From a virus, in the IMG/VR virus record IMGVR_UViG_3300021142_000002, positions 62,001-126,000 of that record: a DNA stretch of 64,000 bases; one strand, written 5' to 3'. The notes below the pieces were generated by a model. The model had not been told where the DNA came from and ran no database searches. It worked only from the letters and a program-made list of their open reading frames with translations. This document shows, in pieces, positions 12,864 through 49,757 of the stretch (position 1 is the first letter of the stretch; every line of letters starts with the position of its first letter). A program made the translations under genes and the position numbers.

Positions 12864-14543
12864 ATGAATGAAAATAAATCTAGTATTAAAAGGGAATTTG
12901 TATTTGGTACTTACTGCCCTAATAGAGTAGATAGAAATAAAGATGCTGTTTTTGTTAAAGAGATTTTACATAAAGATGGTATGATAAAAAGAAACTTAAG
13001 GATGATAGAAAACTATCAAAGACCTTTTTATATTACTAAACCAAATTACAGAGATCATCAGCAAAAGAAAGAATTTGAACATTTAGCTAAATTAGATACT
13101 TACTATACGAATCAAGCTAATTTATCTAAAAGTATCTTTAAAGTACTCAACGGCTATAGACCTAATAATTATATTTCTATTCAGGATATGAATGAATCAC
13201 CTTATGTCTATGGCACTGATGTAGCTACACCAGTACTGATAGCTAATGATTATAAAACTAAATATCCAGATTTATTAACACCTTCAACACTGGCTGTGCT
13301 GGACTATGAAACTGATGTAGTCATGGGAAAAGAATATATCATTTCTGGTGTATTAGCTATGAAAGATAAACTACATATTGCTGTATCTAAAGAGTTTTTA
13401 GGTTACTTAGCTAAAGATGCTAAAGAACTGATTAAGCAAGCTTTAAATAAGTATCTATCTGAGTACATGGAAAAAAATAAGATAGAGCCTATTATTACTA
13501 TAGTGGATAAGCCCTCTGACGTAGTATTAGCTTTAATTAAATCAGCTCATACTTGGCAACCTGACTTTGTAGCTTGCTGGAATATTAAGTTTGATATGAA
13601 TAAAATGCTAGAAGCTTTAGCGATGGATGATATAGACCCTGCTTTTGCTTTTAGTGATCCATCAGTACCTCCTGAATATAGATTTTTTAGATGGCGAGAA
13701 GATAAGGATAAAAAATCAACAGCCAGTGGTAAAGTAACCCCTAAACATATAGCTGATAAATGGCATACAGCAACCTGCCCTGCTAGTTTTTATTTTATTT
13801 GCTTAATGGCAGTCCATAGAACAGTAAGGGCCAGAGATCCTTATAGATCTAGTTATAAATTAGATGCTGTATTAAAAGACTTTGGTGTGGGTGGGAAATT
13901 AAAGTTTGAAAATCTACAAGAAGGTTTAACAGAGTTAGATTGGCATAAGGAAATGCAAAGGATGTATAAGATAGAATACATGGTCTATATGGCATGGGAT
14001 GGTGGGTCAGCGATAGAGCTAGATCAAAAAACTAAGGATGCTAGTAACTCTGTTAGAGGAATGATTGGATTATCTGAATTAAGTAATATGAAAAGTAATC
14101 CAAAAAGACTATCAGATGACATGTACTTTGAACTATTAAAAGAAGATAAAGTATTAACGGGTACTAGCAACTGTATGCGTGATGAACTCGATGCTCTTAC
14201 ACCATCCCTTGTAAATTGGATAATAACTTTACCTTCTGAGTTAGAACATCACATGGGTAGAGCATTAATCAATGAATATCCAAAGATGCATACTAACATT
14301 ACTACCCATGCCTTTGACATTGACGTAGTATCGGCCTATCCTAAAACAGAAATAGCTTTAAATGTTTCTAAAACGACTAGAGCATTAGAATTATGTAAGA
14401 TTAGCGGATTAAGTGATAAACAGCAAAAGTCATTGGGCATTAATATGACTAATGTTAAAGTCAATGCCTTATCATTAGCTGAAAAAGCTTATAAGTTTCC
14501 TGATGTAGATGTTTTACTACAAGCTTTTATAAATCAAATGTAA
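12864..14543 (+). CDS. Family B DNA polymerase, N-terminal half (exonuclease plus palm motif A)
   Basis: 559 residues. 3'-5' exonuclease motifs are visible: Exo I LAVLDYETD (D147, E149), Exo II ACWNIKFDMNKM (N240, D244), Exo III YMVYMAWDGG (Y375, D379). The last recognisable element is palm motif A, DIDVVSAYPKTE (485-496). After it only about 65 residues follow; the fingers motif (K-x3-N-x-YG) and motif C (DTDS) are absent. The stop is followed by a proper hairpin terminator, so the gene ends naturally here. The matching C-terminal palm/thumb half appears at 63207-64000 on the other strand, which suggests a polymerase made of two polypeptides. Confidence 0.8.
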   Translation: MNENKSSIKREFVFGTYCPNRVDRNKDAVFVKEILHKDGMIKRNLRMIENYQRPFYITKPNYRDHQQKKEFEHLAKLDTYYTNQANLSKSIFKVLNGYRPNNYISIQDMNESPYVYGTDVATPVLIANDYKTKYPDLLTPSTLAVLDYETDVVMGKEYIISGVLAMKDKLHIAVSKEFLGYLAKDAKELIKQALNKYLSEYMEKNKIEPIITIVDKPSDVVLALIKSAHTWQPDFVACWNIKFDMNKMLEALAMDDIDPAFAFSDPSVPPEYRFFRWREDKDKKSTASGKVTPKHIADKWHTATCPASFYFICLMAVHRTVRARDPYRSSYKLDAVLKDFGVGGKLKFENLQEGLTELDWHKEMQRMYKIEYMVYMAWDGGSAIELDQKTKDASNSVRGMIGLSELSNMKSNPKRLSDDMYFELLKEDKVLTGTSNCMRDELDALTPSLVNWIITLPSELEHHMGRALINEYPKMHTNITTHAFDIDVVSAYPKTEIALNVSKTTRALELCKISGLSDKQQKSLGINMTNVKVNALSLAEKAYKFPDVDVLLQAFINQM

Positions 14544-44437: not shown

Positions 44438-44605
44438 TTATCTGTTAATAAAATTACTCCAGATACTTGTTGTTACATCGGGTAAATTGATAACACTACT
44501 TAATTGCCCTAGATTAGTCGAATCATGAATACCATAGTGCGACTCTAGTAATCTACCCGCTTCTTGATGCCTTTTATCCATTAAAAGGAACATATTCATT
44601 TCGTC
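44438..44605 (-). CDS. RNA polymerase beta' N-terminal subunit, exon 4 (C-terminal 55 aa)
   Basis: After intron C ends with ...AATACG, the frame reads GAC GAA ATG AAT ATG, giving DEMNMFLLMDKRHQEAGRLL and on to SIWSNFINR, then TAA at 44438-44440 (56 codons with stop). The first Asp supplies the third catalytic aspartate of the NADYDGDEM motif. The exon is not an ORF with its own start, so it would be missed by any gene finder that ignores splicing. Confidence 0.9.
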   Translation of the reverse strand, partial: DEMNMFLLMDKRHQEAGRLLESHYGIHDSTNLGQLSSVINLPDVTTSIWSNFINR

Positions 44606-44958
44606 CGTATTGTTCAGATAGAGTCGTTAATTCTATCCCGTAGTGATTAACTACTGCTAATACTCTCGTATTAGACCAGATCATGTCTTTACCGATTAGT
44701 ATTTCTTTAAAATACTAATGAAGGTACCTCCCATTTCTTCCCACTTGGGTTCTACTCCGCATAACCGGATGATCGTTGAACTTTTTCCATATACAAATAC
44801 TGTACTTAGGAACTTAGCTGCATAGTTATCTCTATTTACTATATTTTCAAACTGTGGCATTATCTTTCGATAATACAGTAGTATAGTAACTTAACAAGAT
44901 GTTCTAGCAATTAAAGAGGGTTCTATCTTAATATTTCTATTAAGTAGGGCATTTGCAT
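44606..44958 (-). ncRNA. Group I intron C (353 nt, ORF-less)
   Basis: Lies between exons 3 and 4. Minus-strand core: P-type AATTGCTAGAAC (44901-44912), R-type GTTCAACGATC (44771-44781) and S-type AAGACATGATCTGG (44677-44690). P1 is convincing: exon-intron text GGT/ATGCAAATGCC folds so that GGUAU pairs with AUGCC with the U-G wobble exactly at the splice site. The intron ends in G (TACG), as required. No protein is encoded. Confidence 0.9.
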
Positions 44959-44967
44959 ACCATCATA
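44959..44967 (-). CDS. RNA polymerase beta' N-terminal subunit, exon 3 (9-nt micro-exon, Tyr-Asp-Gly)
   Basis: Only TATGATGGT. Intron B ends in ...GAACAATACG just before it and intron C begins ATGCAAATG just after it. Both flanking introns obey the U / G rule (exon 3 ends in U; intron B ends in G). Exons 2-3-4 join as GCNAD-YDG-DEMN, rebuilding the universally conserved NADFDGD-type motif with the usual F replaced by Y. Unspliced reading gives YDGMQM, which would lose the third aspartate, so splicing is essential for activity. Confidence 0.9.
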
Positions 44968-45378
44968 CGTATTGTTCAGATAGAATCGTTAATTCTATCC
45001 CGCAGCTTTACCTGCATCGCTAACACTTTCATGTTAGACCAGACTATATCTTCTACTAACTAGATTTAATTAGTAGCCCACCACTTCGAGATTACTTAAT
45101 CTCTACACCACGCAACCGGTTAGTCGTTGAACTTTACTCATATGCTCAGTAGAGCACTTAGAGTCTTAGCTGCTGATTGCCCAATCTTTATTATTTTTAA
45201 ACATTCATATTTCTTTTCAAAAATACAGTAGTTAATAAAGCTCTAAGGGGTTTCCAGCAATTCAATGGGATTCTTTATAACCTTACGACTATAAAGGACT
45301 CTAATTTCACTTATACTTAATTTAAATACCATCATAAAAAAGATGCTAGATAAAATAGGAATTATATAAGCATTTGAT
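44968..45378 (-). ncRNA. Group I intron B (411 nt, ORF-less)
   Basis: Between exon 2 (ending GCAGAT) and exon 3. Core: P-type AATTGCTGGAAACC (45249-45262), R-type GTTCAACGACTA (45121-45132), S-type AGATATAGTCTGG (45038-45050). It ends in G (ATACG, like intron C). The P1 pairing to GCAGAT is not obvious. The intron carries an 11-nt copy of micro-exon sequence (TATGATGGTAT at 45326-45336, minus strand), suggesting past copying of intron C with its flank. No ORF. Confidence 0.85.
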
Positions 45379-45492
45379 ATCTGCATTGCATCCACGCAGC
45401 ACTAGAGTAGAAAAACTGATTGTTTTATCCTTTAAATCATTTTTTACTTTAGTTATATAAAAACATTGTGCAGATAGTCTTCCAAGACTAGG
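45379..45492 (-). CDS. RNA polymerase beta' N-terminal subunit, exon 2 (38 aa)
   Basis: The frame CCT AGT CTT GGA reads PSLGRLSAQCFYITKV then KNDLKDKTISFSTLVLRG and CNAD, joining exon 1 (...MVLFQRN) as RN-PSLGRLSAQ, matching the conserved R-x-P-(T/S)-L-H/G-R region of beta', and running into the catalytic NAD. The exon is in frame and has no stop. Intron A ends G (TATATG) just before it. Confidence 0.9.
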
Positions 45493-45929
45493 CATATATC
45501 TTTAAATAAGGTCGTTAATCTTATTTCTACTAATGTAGCTCTTACTCTCGTAAGATGTTGAGACTATATCATTACCTTTTACTTACTTTGTAAGTAAGCA
45601 TTCAGGCACACACCACTTCGAGATTACTTAATCTCTACTCTACTCGATTCAATTTATTCAATCGTCTTTCGATAGTCGTTGAACGTTCTCCTTATCTCGA
45701 TAATAGACTTAGGAGCTTCGCTGCTGATTGACTCTATTTACTATTTTTCAAACTATGGTATTATCTTTCAATAATACAGTAGTATAGTAACCTAACGAGT
45801 GATTCCAGCAATTAGATGTGTTTAATCAACAATATTTCTATTGAGGGGAACCCAATAACTTATGGTTATATGAAATAATAGTTTACAGAAATAAATCTGA
45901 TGATATTAAACTATAAATTATTTATATAA
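45493..45929 (-). ncRNA. Group I intron A (437 nt, ORF-less)
   Basis: Between exon 1 (ending CAACGGAAT) and exon 2. Core: P-type AATTGCTGGAATCAC (45799-45813), R-type GTTCAACGACTA (45673-45684), S-type GATATAGTCTC (45559-45569). P1: exon GGAAU pairs with GUUCC in the intron (in GGGTTCCCC), with U-G wobble at the splice site. The intron ends in G. Large stretches are nearly identical to intron C (around 45730-45790 versus 44830-44890). Confidence 0.9.
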
Positions 45930-47087
45930 ATTCCGTTGAAATAAAACCATAATCCCTCTGCATGGTAAAGGCGTTATTTCAAATTTTGTAACTCGTTTTA
46001 TTTCTGGCCCTTCATTAATTAGTTCTTGTATAATTTCGTCTATTAACTTATTATACATATTGCCACTATTTTCAACTAAATCATAGGCTCTTTTAGAACT
46101 AAAATTTCGCTGCATTAATTTAGAAACAATATGAACCTTTAACATCTCTAGACCCTGGGCCCAGGGTACATGTATTTCACTATATGAATGAGGTACATTT
46201 AAAGATGTGATCACCGCCCGCATACAAAAGTGTGATCTAGAACAATATAACTGTCCTCTAAACCATCCCTTCTTTAAACAGAATGTACCCTTAATCGTTG
46301 CAACATGATAAGCTACTAGATTAGCTATAACAGAGACTACTTTAGTTTCTATCTGGTTATCCGTTAATGGCTTAGACCTAGGCATGCTAATGTTAGCGAT
46401 TGTTCTACAAGCATCAATAGCGCCTGTAATAGATCGTTTATCTGCCCATGCGCCTGTTTGGGTATTTTCTACAATTAACATAGCCTTGGTAGGCACGGGT
46501 AAATACTTTGGAAATATTTTATTTCTAATGGCTTTAAGAAAGTAACAATAATCCAAAGCTTTATTCTTAGTTAATATAGGCAATATCTCTAAGAATTTAT
46601 CAAAGTTTCTAATAAAGTAATTTAATCCTCGCTCCCAACCTATGGATTCTAAATACTTTATTTTCTTTTGTGACTCTTTTGTTAAGTTACTAGGTACTTT
46701 AGCTCTGGAGTTTGTTAAATACTCCATGATGGAATAAGAGCCTCCTAGATGAGTATTTAACTGTACCCAGACTTCAGGTACAATAAATCCATCTATTCCA
46801 TCCGGTACTCTTATCCATGTTCGCATATCTATATTGCCTTCAGCAGGATAAGTAACAGGGGTATTGCAATTATCACAATACTTGTTTTCTTTAAATCCAT
46901 ACTTAGTATGCCCACAAGCGCAAGTAGGTACAGAGCCCAATACATCTGATTCATAAGTCGTTAGAATTAATGAATTAAAGGCAGCTCTATCTTCCTCTGT
47001 TTGATAAGGCACATCATTTAATACAACTGGTTTGACTACCTTAGTAAAAACAGTATCAAAGTCCGGTATATCAATGTAGTTTGACAA
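45930..47087 (-). CDS. RNA polymerase beta' subunit, N-terminal part, exon 1 (386 aa)
   Basis: 386 codons from TTG 47087 (ribosome-binding site AGGAGATTATAAA) to CAACGGAAT at 45930. Whole spliced protein: 482 residues (386+38+3+55). Landmarks: a zinc-binding element CACGHTKYGFKENKYCDNC (residues about 56-74, four Cys), then the long clamp/lid region, ending in PLPCRGIMVLFQRN, where exon 2 continues PSLGRL. The read-through frame would add only LYK before stopping inside intron A. In phiKZ this subunit is encoded as a separate gene (gp74 or gp180), supporting the identification; which polymerase it serves cannot be told here. Confidence 0.9.
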
Positions 47088-47771: not shown

Positions 47772-49757
47772 TTATCTTTGGTTCCAAGTAGAAGCCAAAG
47801 GTGATGTTGTTCCATAGTGCTGTGGATTATAACCTGGTTGGTTATAATTTCTTTGGTAGTAAGAAGAAACACCATGACCTTGCAGCGGAGTAATGTACTC
47901 GCTATTAAATGATTGACGTTGTACCATAGAAGACATATCAGATAGACCTTCAATAGTTACAGCAATGCCGCATTGTGCGTGCATTTCTTCAATAGTATTG
48001 ATGAAATCATTATTGAAGAAGAACCGTGAAATCAATCCAGTCACTGTAAAGTTAGGCGCCATTTGTTTACGGATATTACGTTTGATATCCATGTCTTCTA
48101 AAGAGTTATTGCCTGGATAGAAACCTAAGGCAAATGAATCAAAGAATGTCATGTCGCCTGCTGAATAACTTAAGCAGGTCAGATAATCAATAGTTCGACC
48201 ATCACGTGCTCTACCATTTGTATCAGTGTAATAACCGGCATGTAAATCCACACGCAGCGTAGAATTAGTAGCACGATCGTATTGCATGATAGGTTTATTC
48301 TTTGGCAGCCATAATTTGCTGAATACACCGCCTGAATAAGCATCCAATTCATTAATAATAATAGATTCTTCTTTAGAACCCGGTACAGCACCTGCAAACA
48401 AAGTTTGTAACCATTCAGTTGGACTGCCTTTAATGATATCCATAGCGACCAGCACAGTACGAGTGCAATACATAGCTGCCATCGCTTGAGCAGTTACTTT
48501 ATCTTCACCCACCATAGGGTCAGAGCCGCTAACAACAGTTAGTTCTTTAGGAACAAATTGTTTTTGTGGCATTGGCAATGGATCATGTTCAAGACCTAAG
48601 ATACCTAAGTTAGGTTTCAACTGATTATCACCTACAAAAGGTTCAAAGATAGTAGCCCATTTATTTTGGGTAGGGTCTAGTAATGGTAATAATGATGGCA
48701 GCGCTAATAGCTGAGTCAACAAATTATCATTAGACCGACTAGATGCACCTAAAGATGAAGTGTTTGTAATCACAAACACTGGATCATAGCCTGGAGTAGG
48801 TACTGGGTAACCAGTATAAGGTGCTTGCTGAGTAGGTACTCTGCGGTAGAAATCCATATAGCCCGCAATAGCCGTTAATGCAATTTCATCTTGTTGATTA
48901 CTAATAGCACGAACATCAGTGCTAATTGGTTTACCTGCTTGGCGTGCATAAAGGACCACGTTAACATCGGCGACATAAGGCTGATTAACAGATGATAAAT
49001 AAATGCCGCCTGGAGTGACATCAAACTTAGATACCAACTGTACAGTATTGTTAGCCAATACATTAACAGTGACTGGCGAGGTTGGTAAGTTTTGTTTGCT
49101 GCGCATAGTAGCGCTGATGGCAGCCAAGGCATGGTCATAGAACTTAGCGAGTGAATTAATATTCAACAACTCAACCGTTTTTGGCACCACCATGTTAGAT
49201 GCACAAACACTGCCATTTGATTTACCCGATACATTGCCAATAACATTTTCAACGATTTCTCGAGTTTGTTTGTTCCAGAATAGAGCTGGAAACATGTCAA
49301 TTTCAACCGAGCGATTATTTCTACCAATGTTTGCATGCTTATTAGCTAGTGGGCGAGCCATTTCTTCAAACATTAATGTACTATAGTACACTAAGTTTGT
49401 TCTGCTACATTTAAACCAAAGTGCAACAATCGCAATTGGAATGCGTGGATCTTCAACTGGAAGGACTTTAACTTGTAGAATGGTTGGATTATTTTCAACC
49501 CGTTTTTGCACATCCGCCAATGCTTTCAGCAATTCAGTAGTATTACCTGAACCTACATTGCCAGATGCAGTAACTGAAGATAAACCCATTAAGGCATCAA
49601 AACCGACTGTAGCTGCTGAACCTGCATTGCCACTTACATAGGCTGATGCTTGAGATTCAAACGTATCATTAGTTTTGTGCTGTTGCTGATTGCCACGACC
49701 TGTGGTTAGAATTACTTCATCTTCCTCAAAGCCTGGGCGATTAGTAGTATTATTCAT
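47772..49757 (-). CDS. Large abundant-type protein; candidate phage nucleus-shell protein (chimallin)
   Basis: 661 residues; ribosome-binding site CAGGAGC, with a 140-nt leader from the promoter-like box at 49897. A short unstructured N-terminus (NRPGFEEDEVILTTGRGNQQ), two folded domains, and a flexible C-terminal tail (YQRNYNQPGYNPQHYGTTSP). Codons are less AT-biased than average, as expected of a very abundant protein. Size, plan and tail fit chimallin (about 630-660 residues, N-terminal segment, two domains, flexible C-terminal segments that link subunits) of phiKZ-like phages. The major capsid protein is the main alternative. No motif proves either. Confidence 0.45.
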   Translation of the reverse strand: MNNTTNRPGFEEDEVILTTGRGNQQQHKTNDTFESQASAYVSGNAGSAATVGFDALMGLSSVTASGNVGSGNTTELLKALADVQKRVENNPTILQVKVLPVEDPRIPIAIVALWFKCSRTNLVYYSTLMFEEMARPLANKHANIGRNNRSVEIDMFPALFWNKQTREIVENVIGNVSGKSNGSVCASNMVVPKTVELLNINSLAKFYDHALAAISATMRSKQNLPTSPVTVNVLANNTVQLVSKFDVTPGGIYLSSVNQPYVADVNVVLYARQAGKPISTDVRAISNQQDEIALTAIAGYMDFYRRVPTQQAPYTGYPVPTPGYDPVFVITNTSSLGASSRSNDNLLTQLLALPSLLPLLDPTQNKWATIFEPFVGDNQLKPNLGILGLEHDPLPMPQKQFVPKELTVVSGSDPMVGEDKVTAQAMAAMYCTRTVLVAMDIIKGSPTEWLQTLFAGAVPGSKEESIIINELDAYSGGVFSKLWLPKNKPIMQYDRATNSTLRVDLHAGYYTDTNGRARDGRTIDYLTCLSYSAGDMTFFDSFALGFYPGNNSLEDMDIKRNIRKQMAPNFTVTGLISRFFFNNDFINTIEEMHAQCGIAVTIEGLSDMSSMVQRQSFNSEYITPLQGHGVSSYYQRNYNQPGYNPQHYGTTSPLASTWNQR

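Follow-up and report, generated by a model that had tools for sequence, protein, structure and literature searches.

phiKZ is among the closest described systems to the locus reported here. Its nvRNAP beta'N gene (gp55/gp56/gp56.1) is interrupted within the codons of NADFDGD by a group I intron with an RF00028 core (75.6 bits), and the deposited gp55 open reading frame (ORF) ends at the intron, with 420 codons unspliced. The joined protein is present in PDB 7OGP, whose chain A (phiKZ nvRNAP) was deposited as PHIKZ055 + PHIKZ056.1. The gp55 recovered from infected cells has been reported as 56 kDa (Yakunina et al., PMC4666361), and the nvRNAP structure paper places 417-DFDGD-421 in gp55 (PMC7618050); the word "intron" is absent from the nvRNAP papers searched. 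Among further phages that interrupt this gene more than once are Pseudomonas phage KEN49 (PP456877) with three group I introns and Aeromonas phage PS1 (MN032614) with two. In phage PhiPA3, the gp210 group I intron is inserted at conserved aspartates of another chimallivirus RNAP gene, the virion RNAP (vRNAP) beta gene, and its nuclease has been shown to act as a weapon against phiKZ (Birkholz 2024, PMC11620839). Phage Twort has a gene with three group I introns that resemble one another, with possible exon skipping (Landthaler and Shub 1999, as cited in PMC3073962 and PMC11878797).

In the present study, we analysed a window of 64,000 nucleotides (the whole stretch of DNA given above) from a metagenomic phage record of 220,366 bp. 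Positions 44438-47087 of the window, on the minus strand, very probably hold a phiKZ gp55-type nvRNAP beta'N gene of a giant, nucleus-forming phage, split by three ORF-less, self-excising group I introns. The single intron of phiKZ lies at N/ADFDGD (the slash marks the insertion) and carries an HNH/NUMOD endonuclease, whereas the three ORF-less introns of the present phage lie at RN/P, NAD/Y and DG/D. KEN49 has its first intron at the identical RN/P site, but its second and third are at N/A and DGD/Q, its middle intron has an ORF, and its introns match those of other Pseudomonas phages site by site. The two introns of PS1 occupy exactly NAD/F and DG/D and enclose a 9-base FDG micro-exon; however, its RN/P site is without an intron and its second intron contains an HNH endonuclease. 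The PhiPA3 intron differs in subunit and site and has a nuclease, which introns 1-3 here do not. In the Twort case, according to the papers that cite it, the gene and the phage family are unrelated and splicing was demonstrated experimentally, whereas the splicing activity of the present introns, like the order of splicing and the route of their arrival, is what we infer from sequence.

Results

The four exons listed in Table 1 join in frame, with no internal stop, into an ORF of 482 residues, whose junctions read QRN/PSLGRL, GCNAD/YDG and YDG/DEMN and restore the motif NADYDGDEM. The exon coordinates, the join and the motif had been given by an earlier, sequence-only reading of this DNA, and all were reproduced. 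Its assignment of the gene to a phage RNAP beta' subunit was confirmed as well, as the joined protein covers almost all of the phrog_2987 profile ('RNA polymerase beta subunit'; residues 4-481 of 482 on profile positions 4-475 of 478, E 1.1e-123), and also matches Pfam RNA_pol_Rpb1_2. In addition, 7OGP chain A aligns with it across NADFDGDQLN. The chimallin gene adjoins beta'N in the same gene order as in phiKZ, and its place upstream of beta'N marks the phage as nucleus-forming (a chimallivirus). An intact beta' gene elsewhere, one of the circumstances that the sequence-only reading had named as refuting its claim, did not appear in a search of the whole 220-kb metagenomic record, where these exons were the only beta'N sequence found. 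The uninterrupted string GC-GAY-TWY-GAY-GGN-GAY occurs once in the record, in another RNAP gene. The remaining nvRNAP genes of the window are full length, and the DNA polymerase gene (window 12864-14543) is intact.

Table 1. Predicted exons and introns of the beta'N gene and related features of the same genome (window positions, unless a prefix is given)
Feature	Position	Strand	Remarks
Exon 1, nvRNAP beta'N	45930..47087	-	386 codons; TTG start; 3' end ...CAACGGAAT (QRN)
Group I intron 1	45493..45929	-	437 nt; RF00028 core 45539-45867; no ORF >=60 aa
Intron 1 IGS GTTCC	~45847-45851	-	pairs with exon end GGAAT
Exon 2	45379..45492	-	38 codons; PSLGRL...GCNAD
Group I intron 2	44968..45378	-	411 nt; RF00028 core 45020-45316; site NAD/YDG; no ORF >=60 aa
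Micro-exon	44959..44967	-	9 nt; TATGATGGT (YDG); holds one of three Mg-binding aspartates
Group I intron 3	44606..44958	-	353 nt; RF00028 match 44657-44966; site YDG/DEM; no ORF >=60 aa
Exon 4	44438..44605	-	DEMNMFLL...FINR, then stop
Chimallin / nuclear shell protein gene	47772..49757	-	upstream of beta'N; PF25677 E 8.8e-13; phrog_4795 E 5.3e-34
Intron, virion RNAP beta'	G000:C1:168022-168534 (L005:8022-8534)	-	513 nt; without nuclease; RF00028 77 bits; after ADFDGD/K
Intron, virion RNAP beta	G000:C1:162424-164064 (L005:2424-4064)	-	after MNCGD/K; partial RF00028 match, 32 bits, below gathering

A cmscan search of the 64-kb window against Rfam gave exactly three gathering-level matches, all to RF00028, all on the minus strand and all in the gaps between the exons. 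The scores were 91.3 bits for intron 2 (E 4.3e-22), 68.0 bits for intron 1 (E 4.2e-15) and 54.3 bits for intron 3 (E 5.1e-11), the last being only 4 bits above the gathering score of 50 bits. This covariance search, which the sequence-only reading had proposed as a check, agreed with its claim of three group I introns, and the details it had listed were also seen: the P, R and S core elements are intact, G stands at the 3' end of each intron and T at the end of each upstream exon. The introns were likewise found to be ORF-less, as no homing endonuclease ORF, and no ORF of at least 60 aa lying wholly inside, was present in introns 1-3 on either strand; the transcript strand has stops in all frames within them. 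In introns of subgroup IA with P7.1/P7.2, additional stem-loops separate the 5' strand of P7 from the 3' strand of P3. In the RF00028 alignments, an insertion of 35-55 nt with a hairpin such as GAGATTAAGTAATCTC was observed at this position.

The ends of the upstream exons can pair with guide sequences in the introns as GGAAT/GTTCC (intron 1), GAT/GTC (intron 2) and GGT/GCC (intron 3). In introns 2 and 3 this pairing consists of only three contiguous base pairs, and both PS1 and Kodama pair more strongly at the DG/D site. For a wider comparison, the final exon bases of 29 introns (5 here and 24 elsewhere) were scored for pairing with a guide that starts with G and lies directly 5' of the ribozyme core, and other positions ending in T within these exons served as controls. 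The mean pairing was 9.4 at the splice sites, probably an underestimate since the scan window was shortened for several introns, against 5.4 at the control positions (n=194). Among introns of the same site, GGAAT/GTTCC of intron 1 corresponds to GAAAT/GTTTC in kmuB and KEN49, which is a compensatory change. RNAfold returned the expected P1 hairpin of intron 3, GGUAU-GCAA-AUGCC (z -2.6). With the introns folded in isolation, the complete pairing of exon and guide in intron 1 did not emerge, and neither intron 1 nor intron 2 gave a significant fold, so that the pairing in these two rests on comparison.

The beta'N protein was found by tblastn in 285 phage records, and many of the matches break off at residue 386 or at residues 419-428, which are the positions of the introns in the present phage. 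Seventeen phages were fetched because their protein match broke off at these positions (kmuB, fnug, PhiPizzaParty, phiKZ, Goslar, PA7, Kodama, PS119XW, Miami, PS1, Aphrodite1, SaP7, PDCC-1, KpGz_1, Yong XC32, AerS_266 and KEN49), and RF00028 matched in the gap in 17/17; in the uninterrupted relatives FLC9, pVa-21 and PhiPA3 it had no match (0/3). In an IMG/VR sample chosen via patterns outside the active site (N-terminal alignment), the gene was interrupted at the catalytic loop in 4 of 21 members, all four with an RF00028 match in the gap. An alignment of three members based on the NADFDGD pattern was left out of the frequencies because it favours intron-free genes. When IMG/VR was scanned with one protein at a time (joined beta', chimallin or nvRNAP beta), no close relative was found. 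Overall, catalytic-loop introns in beta'N are widespread among chimallin-encoding phages, with the present phage as the most extreme of the cases found.

When the exons were read at the nucleotide level, insertions were located after codons 1, 2, 3, 5, 6 and 7 of N-A-D-F-D-G-D. The N/A site is occupied in phiKZ, kmuB, PhiPizzaParty, KEN49, KpGz_1 and AerS_266 (where G replaces N); A/D in SaP7 and the IMG/VR member L134; D/F by intron 2 of the present phage and in PDCC-1, PS1 and L120 (IMG/VR); D/G in Yong XC32 and L116; G/D by intron 3 and in Kodama, Miami, Aphrodite1, PS1, AerS_266, L125 and L120; and D/Q in PA7, fnug, PS119XW and KEN49. Intron 1 occupies the RN/P site, which lies 38 codons upstream of intron 2 and also has introns in kmuB, PhiPizzaParty, KEN49 and fnug. 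All mapped insertions (Goslar was excepted from the map) fall between codons, and the upstream exon ends in T each time; the 5' splice sites assigned in SaP7 and KpGz_1 are based on the frame and a weaker pairing. Exact counterparts of the 9-base micro-exon, likewise 9 nt long, are present in PS1 (TTCGACGGT) and L120 (TTTGACGGT), and longer micro-exons occur in AerS_266 (15 nt) and KEN49 (18 nt). As a side observation, the exon pairing in AerS_266 (L026:3700-4095) implies GADFDGD in place of the near-universal NADFDGD. In Goslar (167154-173398), an insertion with an HNH gene lies near NAD and the 3' exon begins MNNHIV; neither an FDGDE micro-exon nor a clean pair of splice sites was found in this interval.

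The genome contains five group I introns in total, all of them in RNAP genes, the other two being in the virion RNAP (Table 1). The vRNAP beta intron encodes a 409-aa HNH_3/NUMOD1 endonuclease. For the vRNAP beta' intron, a 5' site after ADFDGDS was considered and dropped for ADFDGD/K, where GAT is matched by the guide GTC, a pairing also seen in the sister introns; relatives read DGD-x-V-S or similar, which favours the latter site. Differing pairs of the five introns share exact stretches of 81, 28, 27, 22 and 21 nt, with an abrupt drop to ~60% identity. The 81 identical bases are common to intron 2 and the vRNAP beta intron, the 28 to introns 1 and 2, and the 27 to the two vRNAP introns. The resemblance of introns 1 and 3 (80-90%) is confined to the first ~100 bases of the core. 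By identity, the nearest introns to intron 1 are those of the same site in PhiPizzaParty and kmuB (75%), and the two vRNAP introns and intron 2 have their closest counterparts among themselves, with uneven tree support. This mosaic similarity suggests conversion between introns, and it would fit a shared intron pool together with exchange within the genome.

Discussion

In the reading that we prefer, each intron would excise itself from the transcript by the two-step reaction started by guanosine, the 5' splice sites being set where the three exon ends pair with the guides beginning GTTCC, GTC and GCC, just 5' of P2. NADYDGDEM would be made when all three introns leave and the 9-base exon stays, and we soundly infer that the removal of all three is needed for an active enzyme. 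Introns 2 and 3 finish in nearly identical 34 bases, both ending ...ATCTGAACAATACG, and the ribozyme of intron 2 might therefore use the 3' site of intron 3 and skip the 9-base exon. The product would remain in frame but be a catalytically dead beta' (NAD-DEM), which might act as a decoy or brake. In Twort, exon skipping has been reported between group I introns that resemble each other (Landthaler and Shub 1999, as cited in PMC3073962), and micro-exons recur in PS1, L120, AerS_266 and KEN49. However, a crowded insertion hot spot would also yield recurrent micro-exons, and those of KEN49 and AerS_266 lie between other sites; we consider such functional alternative splicing quite unlikely.

It is very unlikely that the gene is in decay, with at least one intron no longer splicing and the phage depending on the host RNAP or the virion RNAP. 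The short P1 pairing in introns 2 and 3 and the low score of intron 3 would agree with this, but the exons all keep the frame and the full phrog_2987 profile, the core elements are preserved, and no other nvRNAP gene of the window is shortened. An assembly artefact, in which repeats of related introns became chimeric in the metagenomic record, is highly improbable: long identical segments common to introns can confuse assemblers, but the same architecture is present in the cultured-phage genomes PS1 and KEN49 with unrelated sequence, and the exons here are single copy and in frame. A split gene with trans-acting subunits and no splicing, or inteins, is scarcely credible even though phiKZ-like RNAPs are known to consist of several polypeptides (PMC7598289), since a 9-base exon cannot be a subunit, every frame of the introns is closed by stops on the transcript strand, and the introns score as group I under the covariance model.

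Regarding the origin of these introns, they most likely came by endonuclease-driven homing and by intron-to-intron recombination in a pool shared among chimalliviruses. The nucleases would have been lost later from introns 1-3, while one sister intron still has its own. The Mg-loop codons may be a favoured landing place because their residues cannot change, which preserves the targets of homing nucleases, and because U, required at the 5' splice site of a group I intron, is a possible third base in many of these codons. A spacing of nine bases between two introns is nevertheless a problem for homing; ordinary homing would explain it poorly, because the nuclease target would span both sites and be disrupted by the other intron. 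In a wider scenario, which we offer tentatively and regard as rather unlikely, both RNAP catalytic loops are under recurrent attack by the nucleases of co-infecting relatives. Stacked nuclease-free introns would be kept as immunity, because an occupied loop would be immune to those nucleases; neighbouring introns would convert segments and thereby gain new insertion specificities inside one genome; and several introns in an essential early gene would be tolerable because the phage nucleus separates transcription from translation.

The arrangement had been regarded as new by the sequence-only reading, and this holds in part. Introns in the loop are widespread (17/17 checked and 4/21 in the unbiased sample), phiKZ included, and KEN49 also has three introns and PS1 two at the same sites. 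What remains distinctive is that all three introns are ORF-less, that segments recur among the introns as a mosaic, and that introns have also entered this phage's second polymerase. As far as we found, the combination of three ORF-less introns with two more at the catalytic centres of the other polymerase is new, and so are five introns that are mosaics of one another, with up to 81 identical bases. Within a partial coverage of the literature, by which priority is not proven, no description was found of the multi-site hot spot, the 9-base micro-exon or the intron mosaics. The present phage is thus a real and striking case, yet it is part of a widespread chimallivirus pattern and no solitary oddity.

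Across this phage family, introns crowd into the codons that specify the most conserved motif of multisubunit RNAPs, with at least six insertion positions in seven codons plus the upstream RN/P site. As a result, the deposited RNAP proteins of many such phages break off at the catalytic aspartates or ahead of them. The present phage may serve as a test case for homing introns nine bases apart, for the faithful retention of a 9-base exon by group I ribozymes, and for ORF-less introns as a shield of an essential gene against the nucleases of rival phages. The sequence-only reading had placed the phiKZ intron "in another RNAP gene". An interruption of that kind does exist, but the statement was imprecise, as phiKZ also has an intron in the same gene. 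The virion RNAP gp180 of phiKZ (185289-191743) ends at GAD and resumes at FDGDTVSFNAV; between the two lie a 92-bit group I intron and, within it, gp179 (site GAD/FDGD). Together, the gp180 and gp55 interruptions mean that phiKZ has catalytic-loop introns in both polymerases, for which the annotation gives truncated proteins. Lastly, the IMG/VR members L115 (without an intron) and L116 (with an intron at D/G) have flanks that are 76-79% identical in DNA and constitute a natural empty/filled pair.
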